Of a stretch of DNA of 22,453 nt, positions 1,920-22,381 are shown one piece after another; within the stretch, counting starts at the first letter, position 1; the number at the start of each line of letters is the position of its first letter. Both the position numbers and the translations under genes were made by a program. The notes under the pieces were generated by a model, which worked only from the letters and a program-made list of their open reading frames with translations, was not told the origin of the DNA and did no database searches. This DNA comes from a virus: the IMG/VR virus record IMGVR_UViG_3300011116_000004, positions 1 through 22,453 of that record; one strand, given 5' to 3'.

Positions 1920-3926
1920 TCAATCAAGAAGACCTGGGACAAGCTGACCAGCTGTTGTTGATGTACCAGCTGCGCGAACCTGTTGCTGCATTGCGCGTCT
2001 GCGCAGCTCATCCATGACTGGCGTCAAGCTCGTCAATAGTTGTTGCTGTTGCGCAAAACTTGGATCAAAAACACTGCGGCTTATTAGCTCTGCAACATTC
2101 TCATCCATGCCTTGCAATCGTGGAGCCAGTTGGCGCATCATGTTCATACCGCCACCAACAAGATCGCCCCTTGCCATTTGAGTGCCAGCTTCAATTACGT
2201 CAGTTGGCGATGGACCCTGCAATTCAGCGATGTCTTGCTGTATTGGTGCGGTAGGTGACACACCCTCAATGCGTGATCGTGTGACGGCCATCTGGCGCTC
2301 ACGCTCAAGATTCTTGACGAATGCTTCATACTCGCCAGTCGAATTGAAGATGGTCTTCATGCGGTCCCGCATTTCGCGGTTGTTCAAAAACTTGTCGGCA
2401 ATGTTTGCCGTTTCGCGCATCCCATAAATCTCGTCACGCAAAGACTGGACAGCGCCAAGTCGATACATCTCGCGCTCCGCATCGCCTGGGAATTTCTTCA
2501 TCTCTTTGGAAATTTCTGATGGGGTCTTCTTTAAGAAGTTCTTAGAACCCAATTCCAGCGCATCTTTCAACAATGACTCGTCATAAAACACTTTGACGGC
2601 CTCTTTGTAAACCGGCACGCCTGTGTCTTTGTCTGAGATTGCATTCAATAAAGAAATACGCAAATCATCAAGATCGTTTGCACGTGTTCCTTTCCCTGCT
2701 TTCCTTGCCTCGTTTGCAGCGTCTCCAACGTATTTATAAGCCTTGTCAAGCAAGATCATGTCGTTGTCAGGCAGATCTGCATATTGCGGCAACTTGCGAG
2801 CATCACTGATGGCATTCTGAATGTCTTTTGACTTTCTCAGCAAATTGTCAATTGCAAATGAATTGACCTGACCAGCAGACAGCGCCTGCTTATAAAGTGG
2901 CGCAGCTTGCTCGGCTCTGCGCAGAATAATCTCATCAGCAACTTCACCAATGTCGCGCTCTCCAATGGCGGTGAATTCTGTGATGTCTCTTGTGATTCTT
3001 GGGCCAGTACCTATGGCGCGCTCAGTCAACATTTGACGTGTTTCTGTTTGAGCTGCGTTTGGTATAGCCAAGGCTCCACGGCCCAATCGGCGCATAGACT
3101 CGCCAGCGTAATCTGCCAAGGTTTCATCTCTTGCGCCATATCTGGCAACAACATCAGCTTGGCGTGTTGCCAATTCTTGTGGAGACACACCTTCTTGAGC
3201 CAGCTTCTTCGCAATAAGCTGTTGAGCTTTTGTGGTGGCATCAACTGGTTGAGTCAAGCCGGTAAATTCCCCCAACTTGCGTCCACCAGTTCCAACTGTT
3301 GTTGTCACAGCTGGAGCCGCACCGCCCAATACAAGGCCAGCAGTGCCGCCAATAGCGCCGCCCAATACTCTGTTACCCAAGCCACCTTCAGCGCCGCCAG
3401 CGCCAGCAGCCGCACCTGATGCAGCTCCATAACCCATGCCACGCAAGATGTTTGTGCCAAGCCCTGGCAATGCGGCAGCCGTGCGTGTTGCGCCTGTCAC
3501 TGCTGCTGGACCTGTTGCGCCGCCAGTAAATGGGGCCGCGATCAATGCCGCTGCTGTCGGTACTAGGCCGCCAACAAGCTCACCTGTAAATGATCGGCCA
3601 GGATACTGCTCTTCATATTGCTTGATGCCAGCCCTGACTCTTGCTAATTGATTCTGATACTCAGGGCCACTGATTGCGCCAGCCTTTAATGCGGCCTCAA
3701 TTTCATCAGCGGTGTTGAATGTCAACCCTTGCAAGAATGACCGGCCAAAACCAGCTTCAACAGGAGCGCCGCCAACTTTCTTGGCGCTTGCAACTGCTGC
3801 TTGAAATTTTGTTGGCGTAAAGCCTTCAGACTTGAGGTATCCAATAATGTCAGACTCTGGAGCATTTTGCTCCATCATTTTTCGCACATTGTCTCCAACG
3901 CGATTGACGTTTGATTGTTCTGCCAT
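1920..3926 (-). CDS. Predicted DNA-ejection (pilot) protein with Gly/Ala-rich membrane-active segment
   Basis: This is a 668-aa protein. Residues 1-50 are helical (VRKMMEQNAPESDIIGYL). Then comes GRSFLQGLTFNTADEIEAAL, a block I recognise from many phage internal virion proteins. A long hydrophobic Gly/Ala-rich stretch follows (about residues 115-215), with repeated AAGAGGAEGGLGN- and GGAIGGTAGLVLGG-type segments that could insert in membranes. The C-terminal 450 residues are charged and alpha-helical. This is typical of ejection proteins that leave the capsid with the DNA and form a channel across the envelope. It starts by TAATG overlap with the preceding gene's stop, with AAGGAG 7 nt upstream of ATG 3926. 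Family-level function is inference from composition and gene order; the coding call is certain. Confidence 0.82.
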   Translation of the reverse strand: MAEQSNVNRVGDNVRKMMEQNAPESDIIGYLKSEGFTPTKFQAAVASAKKVGGAPVEAGFGRSFLQGLTFNTADEIEAALKAGAISGPEYQNQLARVRAGIKQYEEQYPGRSFTGELVGGLVPTAAALIAAPFTGGATGPAAVTGATRTAAALPGLGTNILRGMGYGAASGAAAGAGGAEGGLGNRVLGGAIGGTAGLVLGGAAPAVTTTVGTGGRKLGEFTGLTQPVDATTKAQQLIAKKLAQEGVSPQELATRQADVVARYGARDETLADYAGESMRRLGRGALAIPNAAQTETRQMLTERAIGTGPRITRDITEFTAIGERDIGEVADEIILRRAEQAAPLYKQALSAGQVNSFAIDNLLRKSKDIQNAISDARKLPQYADLPDNDMILLDKAYKYVGDAANEARKAGKGTRANDLDDLRISLLNAISDKDTGVPVYKEAVKVFYDESLLKDALELGSKNFLKKTPSEISKEMKKFPGDAEREMYRLGAVQSLRDEIYGMRETANIADKFLNNREMRDRMKTIFNSTGEYEAFVKNLERERQMAVTRSRIEGVSPTAPIQQDIAELQGPSPTDVIEAGTQMARGDLVGGGMNMMRQLAPRLQGMDENVAELISRSVFDPSFAQQQQLLTSLTPVMDELRRRAMQQQVRAAGTSTTAGQLVPGLLD

Positions 3927-5605
3927 TATTTGCTCCTTGGAGTCAGGCCATATTGATTTGTGTATGTGGCGTTAGTTTTTTGTTTGCCTTGATTTTTAAG
4001 AGCTTCTTCAGCAACTTCAGTTGGTGTCTTGATGCGCTTAAATGGATCATAAACAATTTGATTCGGATTCAACTTGTACTCTCTTGCAACACCTGTATAT
4101 CTTTGAATCAAGTCATTTGACAGCTCTCTTTGAGACTCAATGATGTTTCTTGCTTGCGCATAAAAATCTTGTCTAATAGTTGGAGCCAATGACTCGCCAG
4201 TCAAAGCCTTGTTGTACATGGCTCTTACTGAGTCTGGGACACTGCCAGCATTCTGAGCCGTGGCTTGTTCGCCTTGCATGACGGTTGAGCCTGGATCAAG
4301 AATCTTCATGTAGCCATAGACCAATGAAATGTCTCCAGCTGCTGACGGGTTAAGGGCAGCCGCCTCAACTTTTCTAAAGGCCTGCGCCAATTCTGTATAT
4401 GGTTTTACTTGCGCTGAGAATTCAGATCTCAAGTCCTTTTCATTGGCAAATGCCTTGCCTGTGCCAGGAATGATTGGCTGCGGGCCAGTAGCCGCAGGCG
4501 CAGGCGCAGGCACAGCCGCACCTGGCATCGGTGGGCCAGTGCGTGATGGAGCTGCCGCTGCCGCTGGCGCTGGAGCTGGCGCAGTAGGCATCCCGCCTCG
4601 GACACCACCACCACCACCGCCAATAGTAAAGTACCCACCTTCAGCACTGCCAACAACTTGAGGAGGAAGTGTTTTAGGGAACACTGTGCCAGGCTTGACT
4701 TCGTAAGGATTAACGAATCTCACGCCGCCACCAGTATCAATTTTCTCTGGCGGTATCAATGGCGTAAAGCCAGATACAACCTTACTTGTGCCATCGTCAT
4801 ACATCTGCACCAGCGTTGGCTTTCCATCAGCACCCATTACTTGCTGTGGCTGACCGACTGGCTTGGCAGCCAATGCTTGTTCGGCTGGAACAAAACCGCC
4901 AGTCTTTGTGCGCAAATAGAACTTGCCATCAGCAGCTTTGAATGGCTCGCCAACTGTTTCCTGTGCAAACTTCATCCCTGCTGGGATAGGCACAAATTGA
5001 CCTGTTTTTGTACGCTGATATTGCGTGCCATCTGTGGCGGTGAAGATGTCACCAGTAATTTCTGCTGGCTGCATAAACTTCAACGCCTCTGGGATGCCCT
5101 TCTCGGGAGGCAAGGCCGCCAACAGTTGGCGCATTTGTGGACTCAAGTTGGCCGCTCCAGTAGGAGAGACTCTTGGCGCTGGTTGGCCGATCATCTCTGC
5201 ACGCTGAACTGTTGGGCCAACAGGCATACCTGGCGCTGAAATAGCTTGCTGTGGGCTGATCTCCATACCTTCGGTAGGCTGGCCCATCAAATATCGCTGA
5301 TAGGCTTCCTGTGAGGCCTGTGCTCGTTTGGCTTCATCCATCTTCTGCTTAGTCAGCAGCTGATTGATGGCGCTTTGCTGTGCATCGACATAGCCCTTGG
5401 AGCCAGCCTGCAATGCGCCGCCCAAGGCCTGTCCAAAGCTGATGCGCTGAGTGCTGGGGCCACCAGCTTGAAGCAGTGCGGCGGCAGCTTGAAACATTGC
5501 CTGACGCTGAATAGCCTCGCGCTGTTTGTCGTTCAGATACTCATTGAGGCCATTGTCGCCACCGCCAAACAATAAGCCGCCAAGATCAAAAGGATTTGTT
5601 GCCAT
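3926..5605 (-). CDS. Predicted internal virion / ejection protein, Pro/Ala-rich
   Basis: This 559-aa protein starts MATNPFDLGGLLFGGGDNGL. A helical Gln/Ala-rich segment follows (AIQRQAMFQAAAALLQAGG; ISFGQALGGALQAGSKGY), similar to phage internal virion proteins. The middle has two repeated beta-type blocks: GDIFTATDGTQYQRTKTGQFVP and, about 40 residues later, EPFKAADGKFYLRTKTGGFVP. A Pro/Ala linker (TAPAPAPAAAAAP and similar) leads to a helical C-terminal domain ending in KINK-poor basic sequence. The ATG at 5605 has GGGG 7-8 nt upstream; that GGGG overlaps the previous gene's stop. It is followed by TAATG coupling to the 668-aa ejection protein. A role in DNA ejection or internal-core assembly is inferred from neighbours and composition. 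Confidence 0.8.
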   Translation of the reverse strand: MATNPFDLGGLLFGGGDNGLNEYLNDKQREAIQRQAMFQAAAALLQAGGPSTQRISFGQALGGALQAGSKGYVDAQQSAINQLLTKQKMDEAKRAQASQEAYQRYLMGQPTEGMEISPQQAISAPGMPVGPTVQRAEMIGQPAPRVSPTGAANLSPQMRQLLAALPPEKGIPEALKFMQPAEITGDIFTATDGTQYQRTKTGQFVPIPAGMKFAQETVGEPFKAADGKFYLRTKTGGFVPAEQALAAKPVGQPQQVMGADGKPTLVQMYDDGTSKVVSGFTPLIPPEKIDTGGGVRFVNPYEVKPGTVFPKTLPPQVVGSAEGGYFTIGGGGGGVRGGMPTAPAPAPAAAAAPSRTGPPMPGAAVPAPAPAATGPQPIIPGTGKAFANEKDLRSEFSAQVKPYTELAQAFRKVEAAALNPSAAGDISLVYGYMKILDPGSTVMQGEQATAQNAGSVPDSVRAMYNKALTGESLAPTIRQDFYAQARNIIESQRELSNDLIQRYTGVAREYKLNPNQIVYDPFKRIKTPTEVAEEALKNQGKQKTNATYTNQYGLTPRSK

Positions 5606-5608
5606 GAT

Positions 5609-6340
5609 TTACCCCAAAAGACCAAGTCCAGCACCAATAATCGCACCAGTTGGACCGCCAATCTGATAACCGGCAGCCGCACCACCCAAAGCACTTGATG
5701 CTGGGTTTTTATAAATTGGCGTTGTTGATGTGCCTCCCAAATTGGCAGGAGACAATCCCAACGCGCCCTGCGCAATCTGAAGTTTCTGCAAATCCAAATT
5801 GCGTGCAGCGTCCAACTGAGCCTGCGCTAGCTGCTGACGTGCACCGCCAAGGCCAAGCACAGTCTGAGCGCCTTGCAGACCCATCTGACGTGCAGCTTGA
5901 GCCATCTGAGCCGCTGTGCCATAACCTTGCTGGCGCATCTGAGCACCAGTCTTTGCGGCCTGCGCAAGCGCGGCTTGATCTGTCAGAGACTGCTGCACGC
6001 CATAGCGAGAGCCACCAAAGGCCTTGGCGGCAGTAGCTTGCTGCGCATTCTGAATCGCAGCCATCTGGCGTGATTGCTCAATGTCGCCCAATGTGCCTTG
6101 GATGACTTGCTGCTCATAAGGATTCATGAATTCTTGAATGCTGGCCTGATTGAATGGTGTCAAGCCAATATTTGTCAGAGCCTCTTCGCCACGCTGATAC
6201 AGAGGATTGAATCCAGCAAACTGCTGTACTGGCAAAGCGCCAGCAACACTGCGAGCCTGCTCCAGATTCTTGAAATACTCTTCCTTGATCTGTGGATCAA
6301 TACTGGTTGTCGTAGTTGAATCGCCGCCGCCTTTTGACAT
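5609..6340 (-). CDS. Predicted internal virion protein, Gln/Ala-rich helical (gp14-like position)
   Basis: This is a 243-aa protein starting MSKGGGDSTTTTS. I chose ATG 6340 because AAGGGG lies 6 nt upstream and the start falls just after the stop of the preceding gene; the longer frame to 6373 would overlap that gene and lacks a good site. After a low-complexity N-terminus there is a segment with FNPLYQRGEEAL and FMNPYEQQVIQGTL. A long Gln/Ala-rich amphipathic helix region follows (about residues 85-190). The C-terminus is Gly/Ala-rich and hydrophobic (ALGGAAAGYQIGGPTGAII), plausibly membrane-inserting. The same architecture occurs in small internal core proteins of podoviruses, first of an ejection-protein set. 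Exact function is inferred. Confidence 0.8.
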   Translation of the reverse strand: MSKGGGDSTTTTSIDPQIKEEYFKNLEQARSVAGALPVQQFAGFNPLYQRGEEALTNIGLTPFNQASIQEFMNPYEQQVIQGTLGDIEQSRQMAAIQNAQQATAAKAFGGSRYGVQQSLTDQAALAQAAKTGAQMRQQGYGTAAQMAQAARQMGLQGAQTVLGLGGARQQLAQAQLDAARNLDLQKLQIAQGALGLSPANLGGTSTTPIYKNPASSALGGAAAGYQIGGPTGAIIGAGLGLLG

Positions 6341-6350
6341 GTCTTTCCCC

Positions 6351-7538
6351 TTAAACCGTTTCGCCGTTTTCACGAATGAATTTTGTATCAGTTCCCAAGG
6401 TGTTGAACACCTTCATCCAGAACTTCTCAACTGGCTTGAATAACCAGCCATGCTTGTTTTCGCCATAGTGGTACTTGCCGTATGACACCAATGGGTCTGC
6501 AAATGTCTTTGCCACAAAGAACTTGAAGATGCGAGATTCGCGCATCAATGGGACAAATACCTCGGCCAGCTTGTAGTAGCCACGGCGGTTTTTGTCTGTC
6601 ATCTTCTCATCGCGGTATCTACGCACAACGGCATCCATCGTGCCGTCACCATATCGAGCTTCCAGCATGATGAAGCAGCATCCACCGCCTCCACCACCGC
6701 CGCCTCCACCACCGCCACCAGATGAAGTGCCAGCACCTGCGGCCATGCCGCCAGCGCCAGTACCCATGGCGGCTGCGCCACCACCGCTGCCGCTGGCAAC
6801 ACCGCCGCCGCCTCCAGATGAACCGCCACCACCGCCGCCGCCAGCGCCATGAAGTCCAAGGCTGGCTGCTGTTGCGCCTGGTGCAATTGAAGATGTAGTC
6901 CCTGCGGCCATGCCTGATGGCCCAAATCCCAATGCGCCAGCATTACCTGATGTTGCGCCTGGTGCACCAAAGCCTGCACTCATGAGGCCGCCATCGCCTG
7001 GCGATGTGACTCCATCACCTTCAGCAGGCGATAACTCGCCAACAGTGACAACACCCTGTTTTTCTCCACCAAGCAAACCATCGCCCAAAGTGAATGGCAA
7101 GAATCCTGCATAACCCATCTTCTTGGCGGCAAGATCAGCCAACTGCAAAGGCATTGGCGTCAATAATTTGTTGATAAAGTCAGCATTCTTTTTCTGGAAT
7201 TCTGCCAATTCTGTTGGCGTCATGGCGTCAAAGAATTGATCAATGCGCTGCTGTTCAGCTGCGCTTCTGCCGCCACCACGTCCACCAGCAGCATTCAAGG
7301 CATTCAGCTCGTCAACCATCTCCTCAACAGTGCGAGGCGCAAATATTCCAGTCTTATAGCCGCCAGCACTTTGAGGAACGCCAGTCACATTGGCAGGCTC
7401 TGCCGCCATCTGTTGCATGATCTGCTGGTAGTAATTGGTAGGCGTAGGCGCTTGACCCTGTCCAAGCAAACCAGTATTCCATTGTGCTGGTGGCAAATTA
7501 CGCCATGCTTGACTTGCTAAATAATCTTCGTAAGCCAT
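6351..7538 (-). CDS. Gly-rich virion-associated protein with CFI-box-like C-terminal domain
   Basis: This is a 395-aa protein starting MAYEDYLASQAWR. I prefer ATG 7538 because AAGGAA lies 9 nt upstream; an upstream in-frame ATG at 7568 would overlap the previous gene. Residues 1-190 contain helices typical of virion proteins. Residues about 190-286 are Gly/Ala/Ser-rich and end in a run of 13 glycines. Residues 287-395 form a separate domain starting CCFIMLEARYGDGTM, then VVRRYRDEKM, NRRGYYKLAEVFVPLM and DPLVSYGKYHYG. The CFI....A.YG...VV..YRD pattern resembles the CFI-box-CTERM domain as I remember it. The domain sits at the C-terminus behind a flexible linker, as in that family. It lies between the GNAT-like gene and the internal virion cluster, so a virion location is likely. 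Function unknown. Confidence 0.82.
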   Translation of the reverse strand: MAYEDYLASQAWRNLPPAQWNTGLLGQGQAPTPTNYYQQIMQQMAAEPANVTGVPQSAGGYKTGIFAPRTVEEMVDELNALNAAGGRGGGRSAAEQQRIDQFFDAMTPTELAEFQKKNADFINKLLTPMPLQLADLAAKKMGYAGFLPFTLGDGLLGGEKQGVVTVGELSPAEGDGVTSPGDGGLMSAGFGAPGATSGNAGALGFGPSGMAAGTTSSIAPGATAASLGLHGAGGGGGGGSSGGGGGVASGSGGGAAAMGTGAGGMAAGAGTSSGGGGGGGGGGGGGCCFIMLEARYGDGTMDAVVRRYRDEKMTDKNRRGYYKLAEVFVPLMRESRIFKFFVAKTFADPLVSYGKYHYGENKHGWLFKPVEKFWMKVFNTLGTDTKFIRENGETV

Positions 7539-7540
7539 GA

Positions 7541-7903
7541 TCAAAGTTCCTTGCTTAAGATGAACCACTTAGGCTCATATCCTTCATCTTTTAAGAATGT
7601 CTTGGACCAGCCTGGACGGCCAGCCAAAGATACTCGCGTGCAACCTATGCTCTTACCCCAAGACTCGATCAAAGGTCGCATCATCTTGAGTTCATCTAGG
7701 TCGCCGCCAGCAAGGAAATAATGCAAGTCCTTAAGCTGCGGGTAGACAATGATCTCTGTCACCACCGCTGAATTCAAGCCAGGCCAGAATTGAAATCTGC
7801 CCTGTTGCAATCCTTCAGCAATATCCTCTATTTTGTGTGTTCCTCCAGAGTATTCTAAGGCGGCCACCACATGATGGCGCAGTCTCTCAAAATCTCCATC
7901 CAT
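7541..7903 (-). CDS. GNAT-like fold phage protein
   Basis: This 120-aa protein starts at ATG 7903, overlapping the stop of the nozzle gene by one base (TGATG); TTG 7906 is a less likely start. It contains IEDIAEGLQQGRFQFWPG, then strands (AVVTEIIVYPQLKDLHYFLAGG), a helix DELKMMRPLIESWGKSIGC and a final VSLAGRPGWSKTFLKDEGYEP. The order strand, helix, strand and GR.GW....L...GY matches small GNAT-like proteins found beside tail genes in many phages. The glycine-rich Q/R-X2-G-X-G/A acetyl-CoA loop is not evident, so catalysis is doubtful and a structural or assembly role is possible. Position between nozzle and internal virion genes is consistent with that. Confidence 0.75.
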   Translation of the reverse strand: MDGDFERLRHHVVAALEYSGGTHKIEDIAEGLQQGRFQFWPGLNSAVVTEIIVYPQLKDLHYFLAGGDLDELKMMRPLIESWGKSIGCTRVSLAGRPGWSKTFLKDEGYEPKWFILSKEL

Positions 7904-9384
7904 CAACGCTTACCCGCCGCCACAGCTTCCAATCTCATGACGCCAACACGCCAATCGTCTAGCACGTCACCAGTCACAATCATCTTGACCTGACGGCCAG
8001 AGAATCTCGCATCAGTTGGCTGTGAGGCTGAATATGGACCATGCGTTGTCTCGGTTGACGTTGGATACATTCGCGTCTTGAAGCTGATGGCAACCTCGCC
8101 CAGCGTCTGCTCATCAGGGATCACCTGACGCACCGACATGATGTTGTCACCCTGACCAATCTCAAAGGGTCCAGACTCGGCATAGACAGTCCCGCCGTCA
8201 TAGGTGAAGCCAACCTCATGCTCGTAGATGTAGGAGTCAGTTGACACCATCAGGGGATTCAAATAGACACCCCGATCAGTTCCAGCGGTGCGAGCCATGG
8301 AGCCAATGTTCCAGTGGTTTTCGCGGTAGTTGAAAGTGACGTAGGAATCAACCTCGTTGCTGGCGCTGGATGGGTAGAACCACCAGATCTCGCCATACTT
8401 GGAGTTGTGGACCGCATAGACCTTGGATGACTGGTTGTAGTTCATGTTCTGAAATACATAGTCAGAGACATCGCAGGGAAGTGGCTTGACATAACCGTCA
8501 AATATCCAGAAGCCTGATTTGCTCATCCACATGGCGGCAGTGTCGATGGCGGCCACAGCCTGAGAGGAAATCAGACCGCATCCAGAGCCAGCCTTTTCAA
8601 AGGCATAGACATAGGGCAGGCCGACATAGCTGGCGGTGTGCACGTCAACGTCAGTGAAAAGCAAATTGATGCCGCGCACCTTCTTGCCAGCCTTCAACGC
8701 GCCAACTGTTTGCAACTCAAAGTCACCAGCCTGATTGGTGGCCGCAGCCGTCCAGACAGTATTGTTTTCCTGATCGCACCACTTCACCATCCGAGGATTG
8801 CCACCAGCGCCAAGAGCAAAGATGAAACGTTCGGCGGTTGACAGCAAGGCTGCGCAACCTGTCGGCGCATTGGTGATGGCCGCCGCCAAGGTTGGCGTAG
8901 AGAAGCCCAACTGCCACTCGTACAGCTTGCCATCGGCGTCCGAACAGGCCACCAAGTACTCACCCCAAGTGTCCAAGGACCATGTGGTGGCAGGTGTCAC
9001 AGTGCCACTATCTGGACGCGCCACGCCATAAGAGTATGAGCCGTAGGGTCCATAGCCGAAACCAGTCTTGATGGTGGCGTCAGCCACGCCAGCTGTGAAC
9101 CCTGTGGGCGTGATGTCTTTAAGTGTCCCAGCCTCGTTCATGGCGTAGAGATTGGATTCAGTTCCCGCAGCGATCCAACGATCCCCGCTGTTGTCCCGCC
9201 AAGTCAAAAGACCACGGCACTTGCCTGTCAGTTGGCTTGTTGACTTCTTACGCCACCCGCCAATTGGGCGCAAGGTGTTCTCAAACCAGCGTACAAGGTT
9301 GGCGGCAAACCACCGCCCAGCAGACTGATACTCAGTGCCGTTGCGGTAGATGCCTGGTGGGATTTTGAGTGGTACGAATGCCAT
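7903..9384 (-). CDS. Tail nozzle / P22 gp10-like DNA-stabilisation protein
   Basis: This 493-aa beta-rich protein starts MAFVPLKIPPGIYRNGTEYQ, then GRWFAANLVRWFENTLRPIGGW, a signature start of phage tail-hub/stabilisation proteins. Repeated strands follow (for example DRWIAAGTESNLYAM, GEYLVACSDADGKLYEW, TAERFIFALG, PRMVKWCDQENNTVW). They suggest a beta-propeller like P22 gp10 and the nozzle of SU10-type podoviruses, which closes the tail tube and holds DNA in the capsid. Later blocks include AMWMSKSGFWIFDG, EIWWFYPSSASNEVDSYVTFNY and DRGVYLNPLMV. Only a poor ribosome-binding site precedes ATG 9384 (spacer GCATAATTAAGCC). It lies downstream of the C1q-like protein. Family call is by pattern and length. 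Confidence 0.82.
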   Translation of the reverse strand: MAFVPLKIPPGIYRNGTEYQSAGRWFAANLVRWFENTLRPIGGWRKKSTSQLTGKCRGLLTWRDNSGDRWIAAGTESNLYAMNEAGTLKDITPTGFTAGVADATIKTGFGYGPYGSYSYGVARPDSGTVTPATTWSLDTWGEYLVACSDADGKLYEWQLGFSTPTLAAAITNAPTGCAALLSTAERFIFALGAGGNPRMVKWCDQENNTVWTAAATNQAGDFELQTVGALKAGKKVRGINLLFTDVDVHTASYVGLPYVYAFEKAGSGCGLISSQAVAAIDTAAMWMSKSGFWIFDGYVKPLPCDVSDYVFQNMNYNQSSKVYAVHNSKYGEIWWFYPSSASNEVDSYVTFNYRENHWNIGSMARTAGTDRGVYLNPLMVSTDSYIYEHEVGFTYDGGTVYAESGPFEIGQGDNIMSVRQVIPDEQTLGEVAISFKTRMYPTSTETTHGPYSASQPTDARFSGRQVKMIVTGDVLDDWRVGVMRLEAVAAGKR

Positions 9385-15525: not shown

Positions 15526-16151
15526 CCAAATGTCCTTGCTCTTGCCAAAATCGCACCGCCTGATGTAGAACCGCGATCATCTGCAATCTGCAACTGATCC
15601 AGTCCTGCCTGATAAAGCGATGACCACACTTGGATTCTCGCATCGTCTTGCAGGTATGGCGCAGCCTGCAACAAAGCACCATACAAATACACATCAGGCG
15701 CTTGCGTCAGCAGCCAGTTGGTTGCAACTGTTGATGACAACTTTGTCAACTTGGCGTAGTACACCAGCTCTGCCGTATATGCGCCGTCAGGGATTGGAAG
15801 CAGTCGGAATTGGTTTCCAACCACTGTGAAATACAGTGGCTTGCCGCTGGACAAGTAGGTGGTGTTCGACAACTGATCCATGGCGTCAATTGTCTGAAAT
15901 GTCAGGTTGGTCACTGGGTTGGTGTTGATCTTGATGGCCTTGGCCTCCAAGAAGTCATCAGGCACAGTGCCATATTCAGCAGCCGCCGCAAATGAGGCAT
16001 TGGCTCTCACAATCATCTGACGGGTGCGCAGCTGGCGCTCGATCTGAGCCTCTGCCAAGCTGATGAAGTCAGGGATGGTGGCCGTCAAGTCTGACCTGTT
16101 GAGCCAGTCGGCCAGCGAGGCCTTGAGTTCGGTGTATGTCGTGAGTGCCAT
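15522..16151 (-). CDS. Head-tail adaptor protein
   Basis: This is a 209-aa protein starting MALTTYTELKASLADWLNR. ATG 16151 overlaps the preceding stop as TAATG, with AGAGG 7 nt upstream; the frame extends to 16190 but only by overlapping the glycosyltransferase gene. Features: TIPDFISLAEAQIERQLRTR (helical), GTVPDDFLEAKAIKI, YLSSGKPLYFTVVGNQFRLL, GAYTAELVYYAKLTKLS and WLLTQAPDVYLYGALLQAAP. This order (DFI.LAE..I.R.LR.R, then P.DFLE, then a hydrophobic helix with LYGAL..A) is the signature of podovirus adaptor proteins such as those of SU10-type phages, which bridge portal and nozzle. Functional call is by pattern. Confidence 0.85.
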   Translation of the reverse strand: MALTTYTELKASLADWLNRSDLTATIPDFISLAEAQIERQLRTRQMIVRANASFAAAAEYGTVPDDFLEAKAIKINTNPVTNLTFQTIDAMDQLSNTTYLSSGKPLYFTVVGNQFRLLPIPDGAYTAELVYYAKLTKLSSTVATNWLLTQAPDVYLYGALLQAAPYLQDDARIQVWSSLYQAGLDQLQIADDRGSTSGGAILARARTFG

Positions 16152-16804
16152 TAGACTGCCTCTTTTTCCATCTCTTCTTTGACGATCCAAGTGTGGTCGT
16201 GTCTGAATTCAAACGTGCCAATGTGGCCGATCTCTTTCGAGACATCATGGTCAATATACACCTTGTAGCCCAGCTCCTGCGCCTTCTTACAAAAGAACAC
16301 ATCCTCGCCCATGTAGCCGCGAGTGCCAGTCTGCCAAGGCATATCAAACCATGGCTCTGTCATGCCCTCAAATACACCGCGCTTGATCATCATGATGCCA
16401 GTGCCGACAGATCCAATCTCTTCCAAGCCTGTTGACTCGGGCATGGTGTAGATGGGCTGGCGCTTTCCGTTCTCATCGTAATTCTGCGCAGTCGGGCCTG
16501 TAGGCATCCTGCGCCGTGCGCAGTTGGCTGCCACGATGTCCACATCATGCGCCAGCAGTCGCTGGATCATGTCTTGCGGAAATGTCATGTCAGAGTCAAT
16601 GAACAGGATATGGCTGCATCCTTCGCGCATCGCATCCAAGCAAAGATCAGCACGCTGATTCTGGATCAGTGTGCCTTGCAGGATCTTCAAGCTCACAGCG
16701 TCAGTGGTGTTGAGCGTGTGGTACGCCACCATGTTGACCATGCAATAGGTGTAATTGGTGTGGACCATGTCCCGCGCTGGGGTGCAGACTGCGATGTAGT
16801 TCAT
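16151..16804 (-). CDS. Glycosyltransferase, GT-A-like
   Basis: This is a 217-aa protein. N-terminal strand YIAVCTPARD, then QGTLIQNQRADLCLDAM and SHILFIDSDMTFPQDMI: the D70-S-D72 element fits the metal-binding DXD motif of GT-A enzymes. IVAANCARRR, IGSVGTGIMMIKR and YMGEDVFFCKKAQELGYKVY (GED at 166-168) follow, with HDVSKEIGHIG at the end. This is the usual layout of phage glycosyltransferases. It would transfer a sugar from a nucleotide donor, but neither donor nor acceptor is readable. It sits between capsid and adaptor genes, coupled by ATGA to the 104-aa gene and by TAATG to the adaptor. That suggests late expression and perhaps glycosylation of a virion protein; action on host surface glycans is an alternative. 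Confidence 0.85.
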   Translation of the reverse strand: MNYIAVCTPARDMVHTNYTYCMVNMVAYHTLNTTDAVSLKILQGTLIQNQRADLCLDAMREGCSHILFIDSDMTFPQDMIQRLLAHDVDIVAANCARRRMPTGPTAQNYDENGKRQPIYTMPESTGLEEIGSVGTGIMMIKRGVFEGMTEPWFDMPWQTGTRGYMGEDVFFCKKAQELGYKVYIDHDVSKEIGHIGTFEFRHDHTWIVKEEMEKEAV

Positions 16805-21562: not shown

Positions 21563-21849
21563 TTCTTGTTCCTTGCAGATATGGCTTTGGCCTTGGCACG
21601 CGCATCGGCCTTTGATGAGGCTCCCCACGCCTTCAATGACAGCAGCAAGCGCGTTGGCTCGCCGTCCTTCATCTCAGGGCCAGGCATGTTGCCCATTCTC
21701 GCAAGGAATGATGCCCTGCGCGGGTTGTCGCCTGACTTCACAGGCGCTTTCAGATTCATGCCCTCGGCCTTGGCACTGGCTCGTCCCTTGGCGTTCAGGC
21801 CGCCGCTTGGGCTTTTTCCCTCTTTACGCTGCCACGCTGGTGTTTTCAT
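21559..21849 (-). CDS. Small basic protein, DUF6321-like
   Basis: This is a 96-aa very basic protein: MKTPAWQRKEGKSPSGGLNA, KGRASAKAEGMNLKAPVKSG, DNPRRASFLARMGNMPGPEM and SLKAWGASSKADARAKAKAI. The WQRKEGKNP.GGLN.KGR and SFLARM.NMPGP blocks are those of a small family I recall as DUF6321, found in phages and bacteria. Basic charge suggests nucleic-acid contact. It lies between methyltransferase and portal, overlapping the former by 26 bp and the portal by 4 bp. Function unknown. Confidence 0.82.
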   Translation of the reverse strand: MKTPAWQRKEGKSPSGGLNAKGRASAKAEGMNLKAPVKSGDNPRRASFLARMGNMPGPEMKDGEPTRLLLSLKAWGASSKADARAKAKAISARNKK

Positions 21850-22381
21850 AAGGTACTTTCTTCAGCACAACATACATGGAGTCAACTGCGCGAGGCAAAC
21901 GCATCACCTCGTCTTGCGGCAATTTTAGGCTCGCACCATACTCGCTGAGACGCATCTCCAAATGCGCCACCTCAAACCGCGAACCCTTCCAGCCCAAGTA
22001 CCACGCCCAATCGCAGTAATAAACCCATGACTTCTCGTTGAACGCCCTCACATGGGTCGGGTCTTGCCACGCGCCGTGGCTCAACTCATAGGGGACATGG
22101 ATGTGCATCTCGCCGCCATCGCAGAGCAAATCCCTGCAATTAGTCATGGCCTGCACCAGATCAGGGATGTGCTCGAGCACGTCAAAGGCCAAGATCTTCT
22201 CAAAGCAAAATGGCTTGATGACAACCTCTAAGCCGTCAAACTTGACCACCTCACCATAGGTCAATTTGGAAGTATCCACCACCCAATCGGCCCCAACATC
22301 GCTGCGGATGTCGGCATTGATGCAGTCAGGTCTGGCGTCCTTGCCAGAGCCGAGATTAAGAACCAAACCAGTCTTTTGCAT
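21824..22381 (-). CDS. SAM-dependent methyltransferase, type-11-like
   Basis: This is a 185-aa protein. Motif I is LNLGSGKDA (residues 9-17), followed by NADIRSD with acidic D24 for SAM ribose binding. DVLEHIPDLVQAMTNC (67-82) and LLCDGGEMHIHVPYE match the post-motif regions of class I methyltransferases. Then HGAWQDPTHVRAFNEKSW, a block common in phage-encoded enzymes of this type. The substrate is unknown; it lacks a DNA-methylase target motif such as DPPY or SPP. It overlaps the upstream partial gene by 26 bp and the next by 26 bp. Together with the glycosyltransferase it suggests modification of a virion or host surface molecule. Confidence 0.85.
   Translation of the reverse strand: MQKTGLVLNLGSGKDARPDCINADIRSDVGADWVVDTSKLTYGEVVKFDGLEVVIKPFCFEKILAFDVLEHIPDLVQAMTNCRDLLCDGGEMHIHVPYELSHGAWQDPTHVRAFNEKSWVYYCDWAWYLGWKGSRFEVAHLEMRLSEYGASLKLPQDEVMRLPRAVDSMYVVLKKVPYENTSVAA

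Follow-up and report, generated by a model that had tools for sequence, protein, structure and literature searches.

The window analysed here is a 22,453-base record of an uncultivated virus, in which a gene for a 395-residue protein ends in a discrete C-terminal domain, hereafter the CC domain (Table 1). This domain of the window protein, CCFIMLEARYGDGTMDAVVRRYRDEKMTDKNRRGYYKLAEVFVPLMRESRIFKFFVAKTFADPLVSYGKYHYGENKHGWLFKPVEKFWMKVFNTLGTDTKFIRENGETV, reads CCFIMLEARYG...RENGETV, and CCFIMLEARYG begins at residue 287 (window position 6680). The glycine run before it is encoded by a mixture of GGT, GGC and GGA codons and not by a single pure repeat. The window protein gave zero matches in Pfam, NCBIfam and PHROG scans. 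An earlier note on this DNA had described the 395-residue reading frame, the 13-glycine run and the discrete C-terminal domain, all of which were borne out by the sequence. It had also placed the gene in a virion operon; the portal, scaffold, major head protein, tail adaptor-like and tail fibre genes indeed lie on the same strand as the carrier gene, and it is by gene order that the protein itself is putatively assigned to the virion.

Table 1. Features of the window around the carrier gene and other features of the same record
Feature	Position	Strand	Remarks
Carrier gene, 395-aa protein	6351..7538	minus	ATG at 7538; stop codon 6351-6353
109-aa CC-type CFI-box-like C-terminal domain, residues 287-395	6354..6680	minus	predicted all-helical
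Cys-Cys pair, residues 287-288	6675..6680	minus	second Cys aligns with the CFI-box Cys (hhalign)
Linker of exactly 13 glycines, residues 274-286	6681..6719	minus	directly before CC
Gly/Ala-rich N-terminal body	6720..7538	minus	family-specific; unlike the bodies of other carriers
Proline-rich open frame	6592-6852	plus	antisense to the glycine run; by-product of Gly codons
Virion structural protein, upstream	7903..9384	minus	phrog_3287
Downstream gene ending in a Gly-zipper-like stretch	5609..6340	minus	weak Gly-zipper_YMGG match
Two large proteins, position of podophage ejection proteins	1920..5605	minus	phrog_13634; phrog_5880
Acetyltransferase-like gene (by sequence reading)	7544-7906	minus	phrog_22172, function not annotated
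Glycosyltransferase-like gene	16151-16804	minus	within structural region
Methyltransferase-like gene	21827-22381	minus	within structural region

The gene immediately downstream of the carrier is a conserved neighbour in 34 CC loci, and its likelier start would be the ATG at MSKGGG. Farther downstream, the phrog_5880 protein showed a weak tape-measure match. This gene order is similar to that of the region encoding the ejection proteins in P22-like podophages, suggesting that the window protein and the other carriers are virion or ejected proteins. No single common phage gene was found always to adjoin the CC domain; several different neighbours occurred instead. In 14 HMO-2011-type loci, a methyltransferase gene overlapped the 3' end of the CC gene (for example, L081:8314-9009 and L290:6308-7012).

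Viral relatives of the domain numbered 132 in the first scan and at least 171 with the alignment, and 80 loci were retained in each scan. In the 80 loci from the 132 relatives, the 109-residue domain was 73–100% identical to that of the window, so the reading frame is not a product of chance. Of the 82 domains that ran to a stop codon, 81 measured exactly 109 residues from CC to the last residue. The domain always ended its protein. The bodies that carry it are of at least seven unrelated kinds, among them DUF4815-type proteins and large ones adjoining the portal gene, and the linkers before it consist of poly-Gly, poly-Ser, Gly/Asp, KGF or Gly-zipper stretches. The Cys pair was found in every one of the 86 distinct domains that cover its position. 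In a Cys-independent test, loci were searched for DNA encoding RGYYK.AEV..P, so that the cysteines were not used as bait; this search returned 88 distinct domains (85 with CCF, one with CCW, and two cut by the contig end before CC). About half of the alignment columns were invariant across 37 CC-domain sequences. Between the window and locus L003, the domains were 100% identical in protein and 95% identical in DNA, indicating that the protein sequence is under selection, and the bodies were 75% identical. The bodies of L013, L035, L044 and L052 matched that of the window at 32–37% over aligned columns, with domains 79–90% identical.

Nearly all copies of the CC domain came from uncultivated viruses, and the isolates carrying it were two Roseobacter phages, CRP-13 and CRP-345. 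The close-relative scan of 84,980 species genomes yielded no genuine copy; its only bacterial genome match (L153) lay on the strand opposite a kinase-like gene and was dismissed as a chance match. Plasmids contained no copy of the phage-type CC domain.

The CFI box is a bacterial C-terminal domain of unassigned function. Annotations of it exist in plasmids and genomes of both bacteria and archaea. Bacterial proteins that bear such relatives of the CC domain include cold-shock, TPR, kinase, calcium-binding and CAP proteins; no papers naming it were found in the open-access literature. One canonical CFI-box protein in a bacterial genome (L156) also has a Cys-Cys pair (RKRCCYITTAC).

The earlier note had likened the C-terminal segment to this family, proposed a search of residues 287–395 against the family model, and named the lack of any score together with variable cysteines as what would speak against the idea. 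Against that model (NCBIfam NF041770.1; 69 positions, curated cut-off 40 bits), the window domain gave no match at E ≤ 10, and the Cys pair was invariant, also among the domains retrieved by the Cys-free pattern. Two sister phage domains scored 16.0–16.1 bits (E 0.007–0.008), which is below the cut-off; for both, NF041770 ranked first among 18,950 models, and its profile position 1 fell on the second Cys. Six plasmid proteins used as positive controls scored 54–87 bits. Alignment of the phage domains with canonical CFI boxes by hhalign gave a probability of 91–93%, a score of 37–39 and P values of 3e-7 to 1e-6, and began at the second Cys of the phage domain; the maximum among 300 column shuffles, which test composition and not every bias, was 18.4. 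The canonical alignment started from a seed query, and six of its matches were then confirmed by NF041770.

The AF2 model of a canonical CFI box contained helices at 2–8, 14–25, 31–53 and 55–73 (pLDDT 92). That of the phage domain, built on an alignment of shallow diversity and numbered from the second Cys, contained helices at about 3–9, 16–25, 28–47, 49–70 and 77–94, with a moderate pLDDT of 75. Compared by helix positions, the helix order was the same in the two models, and the phage domain had one helix more. Searches of the PDB by sequence gave nothing convincing for the phage domain, Foldseek with the phage-domain model found no PDB match at E ≤ 0.001, and VIA fold comparison to the PDB reached a Z of at most 2.2, with no useful match. 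In BFVD, the phage domain matched A0A516LWU8, a protein of 433 residues (TM 0.73, 21% identity).

The two domain types share the extreme C-terminal position on otherwise unrelated proteins, often behind a linker, as well as the Cys-Phe-Ile start, the R.[YFW]RD helix and the order of helices; moreover, phage ctYwJ313 has a true CFI box at the same slot. The phage type differs in an extra preceding Cys, in one residue inserted before YG, in an extra C-terminal helix, and in a length of 109 residues versus about 70–75. From these comparisons, we conclude that the CC domain is a remote homologue of the CFI box, and not a member by the curated rule. Of the two phage cysteines, it is the second that matches the Cys of the CFI box; the first is peculiar to this phage branch.

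In HMO-2011-type podophages, the gene that lies between those for portal and coat encodes homologous bodies in several isolates. The morphogenesis modules of CRP-9 and CRP-13 have been described as HMO-2011-type (PMC8528129). The CRP-13 and CRP-345 proteins (gp55 and gp62) run through poly-Ser or poly-Gly into a CC domain at the end. In ctYwJ313 (MW202701, UOF80731.1), a canonical CFI box scoring 52 bits, above the cut-off, stands behind GGGGGGGGGAG (nine glycines). The C-terminus of HMO-2011 gp49 is VICTELYKQG...RGYHYWAIPMVPVMRK, the tip of CRP-1 gp49 is CYVATALNAKG, and CRP-9, CRP-2 and CRP-212 have related bodies with other endings. CC or VICTEL (CTEL) tips were found on bodies 51% identical over 721 columns, CC or CYVATAL tips on bodies 54% identical over about 630 residues, and a canonical CFI box or VICTEL on bodies 47% identical over 432 columns. 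Between L058 and L003, the bodies were 91% identical and the tips only 81%; between L044 and L045, the tips were 98% identical and the bodies unrelated. Related phages replace the CC tip by other Cys-led tips at one slot. This pattern of exchange demonstrates modularity, and says nothing on what the tip binds.

The VICTELYKQG cassette occurred in 61 viral loci (L292:5933-6280 and L297–L358), also behind Gly-zipper linkers, and matched no family model. Like the CC domain, it is C-terminal and Cys-led, stands behind variable linkers on homologous bodies, and has a core, [RK]GY..WA.P.V..MRK, in register with RGYYKLAEV.VPLMR of the CC domain; unlike it, the cassette has one Cys, shifted by about two positions. 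Its profile scored 29.0 against the CC domain (shuffle maximum 25.6) and 19.7 against the CFI box (shuffle maximum 15.9), which is suggestive of a kinship with both. The CYVATALNAKG cassette was found in 30 viral loci (L294 and L363–L392), and its alignment with the CFI box covered the first 10 columns only. The CC type, the canonical CFI box and the VICTEL type look mutually related.

The CC domain is very probably a divergent, swappable CFI-box-like cassette. This helical cassette forms the very end of unrelated phage proteins, and we propose that its flexible or Gly-zipper linker lets the tip reach out from the body. The tip would then bind a single conserved partner, which is more likely to be a component of the host or envelope than a surface peculiar to virions. 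The Cys pair, placed where helix 1 starts, would stay uncleaved and would stabilise or touch this partner by way of a metal, a thiol or the membrane interface. Being portable, strictly terminal, flexibly tethered and exchanged on homologous bodies, the domain behaves like a docking tip. A host or envelope partner is the likelier one because the near-identical domain occurs on proteins of different virion positions and because bacterial relatives exist without a virion. Docking to the host, read from sequence patterns, is a tentative step that we consider plausible at somewhat less than even chances, and the statement as a whole, an exchangeable linker-tethered CFI-box homologue that docks on a conserved partner, falls just short of an even chance.

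Portal, head or ejection genes repeatedly lie close to the carriers, which leaves room for a common virion partner, and the extreme C-terminal position is fixed. Both observations would also suit a clamp for assembly inside the virion, in which the domain self-associates or binds the portal or core, and disulfides or a metal site of the Cys pair lock the protein in the particle. A candidate for such a partner is encoded next door in several loci. In L035, L044, L077 and L182, the gene 2 bases downstream of the CC gene starts with a Cys-less CFI-fold domain with the motif [ED]GGF[IV]G[AV]AAV..., in which the Cys is substituted; L051, L251 and L269 also carry this domain. The L035 copy is 36% identical to the CFI box of ctYwJ313 over 107 residues, and the L044 copy, though N-terminal, scored 42.6 bits to NF041770, above the cut-off. 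It is possible that this neighbour is a partner of the CC domain. However, a clamp fits poorly with the presence of a near-identical domain on proteins of different virion positions, including the DUF4815-type, with canonical CFI boxes in bacterial proteins that have no virion role, and with related bodies that lack the CC tip. We therefore regard an intravirion clamp as unlikely, although it is the strongest of the alternatives.

The likeness to the CFI box could also reflect convergence on a Cys-led helical motif in place of homology. The window copy misses the family model, indels are needed in the alignment, and the canonical second half, GR..[IV]..YY..SP, is replaced by RRGYYKLAEV.VPLMR in the phage type; it was aligned as RRGYYKLAEVFVP, in which YY and P correspond and G-R and S do not. 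Nevertheless, the hhalign score far exceeded that of the shuffles even without the motif, remaining at 29.4 after removal of everything through CFI/YG. We also scanned 4,713 non-redundant ORFs with a canonical-only HMM, which was built without the ctYwJ313 CFI box and included a few viral-contig members. At E ≤ 1, it matched 53 CC, 9 CTEL, 4 canonical and 7 Cys-less domains and zero unrelated ORFs; the reversed-ORF control gave one match. Because the ORF set had been fetched by searching for these cassettes, the scan shows specificity and not abundance. Together with the similar helix order and the shared slot on homologous bodies, these results make convergence improbable, and the resemblance proposed in the earlier note holds as remote homology, without a match of the window copy to the family model.

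The same note had raised covalent attachment, lipidation or processing of the cysteine, which would mean either a cut where the linker joins the Cys or a lipid on that Cys. An invariant Cys pair immediately behind a flexible linker invites this idea, and a handful of carriers have a TM-like Gly-zipper stretch that runs up to CC. The idea was not supported by the window protein, which has no signal peptide-like segment or lipobox: its N-terminus is MAYEDYLASQAWRN, its highest 19-residue hydropathy anywhere is 0.91, and the Cys lies at residue 287. The residue preceding CC varied (G 57, L 9, S 7, A 3, D 3, V 2, and also F, P, T, E and M), as it does in canonical CFI boxes, which argues against a fixed Gly-Cys cleavage site. 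The Cys-less paralogue keeps the CFI fold, indicating that the fold does not need the Cys. Furthermore, no Hint/Hedgehog-type domain was matched by Pfam in the window protein, and its AF2 model was all-helical, not a Hint beta fold. Lipoprotein-type lipidation is thus not supported and Gly-Cys cleavage is disfavoured; we judge processing of the Cys, of either kind, to be slightly less probable still than convergence. In L237 (a 568-residue ORF) and L287, a DUF4815-like carrier has an internal segment recognised by eye as Hint/intein-like (ECFIAGTQISMYDG...VVHN), which precedes a Gly-zipper and then the CC domain.

Peptidase_S74 and intramolecular chaperone domains of phage fibres are a conserved C-terminal module common to unrelated phage proteins. 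The CC domain is likewise a conserved C-terminal module on unrelated phage proteins, but it differs in its all-helical prediction and shows no sign of autoproteolysis; neither the window protein nor ten relatives matched Peptidase_S74 in Pfam.

Low-complexity linkers are easy crossover sites and exchange is clearly evident, as would be expected if the module were just carried along when repetitive linkers recombine and had no selected function of its own, but the invariant half of the alignment columns and the conservation of protein over DNA between the window and L003 make this very improbable.

Returning to the exchangeable docking tip, the CFI box, CC and VICTEL types may form one superfamily of tips that are swapped on internal virion or ejected proteins and plug a conserved host component, with bacterial CFI-box proteins using the same plug for their own targeting. 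We consider this broader reading rather unlikely as it stands; if true, it would offer a first handle on what the CFI box does. The CFI box is now tied to a phage branch that is invisible to the NF041770 model, and the exchange of tips makes its function testable in the isolated phages CRP-13, CRP-345, HMO-2011 and HTVC033P. With these cassettes, it also becomes possible to annotate the C-terminal ends of numerous proteins from marine and freshwater phages that presently lack a family. The best viral fold match of the canonical CFI-box model was A0A6J5QZ65 in BFVD (TM 0.69), which is named "Intramolecular chaperone auto-processing domain containing protein" and matches the canonical model in part; this suggests that CFI-type tips occur on fibre-like proteins too.
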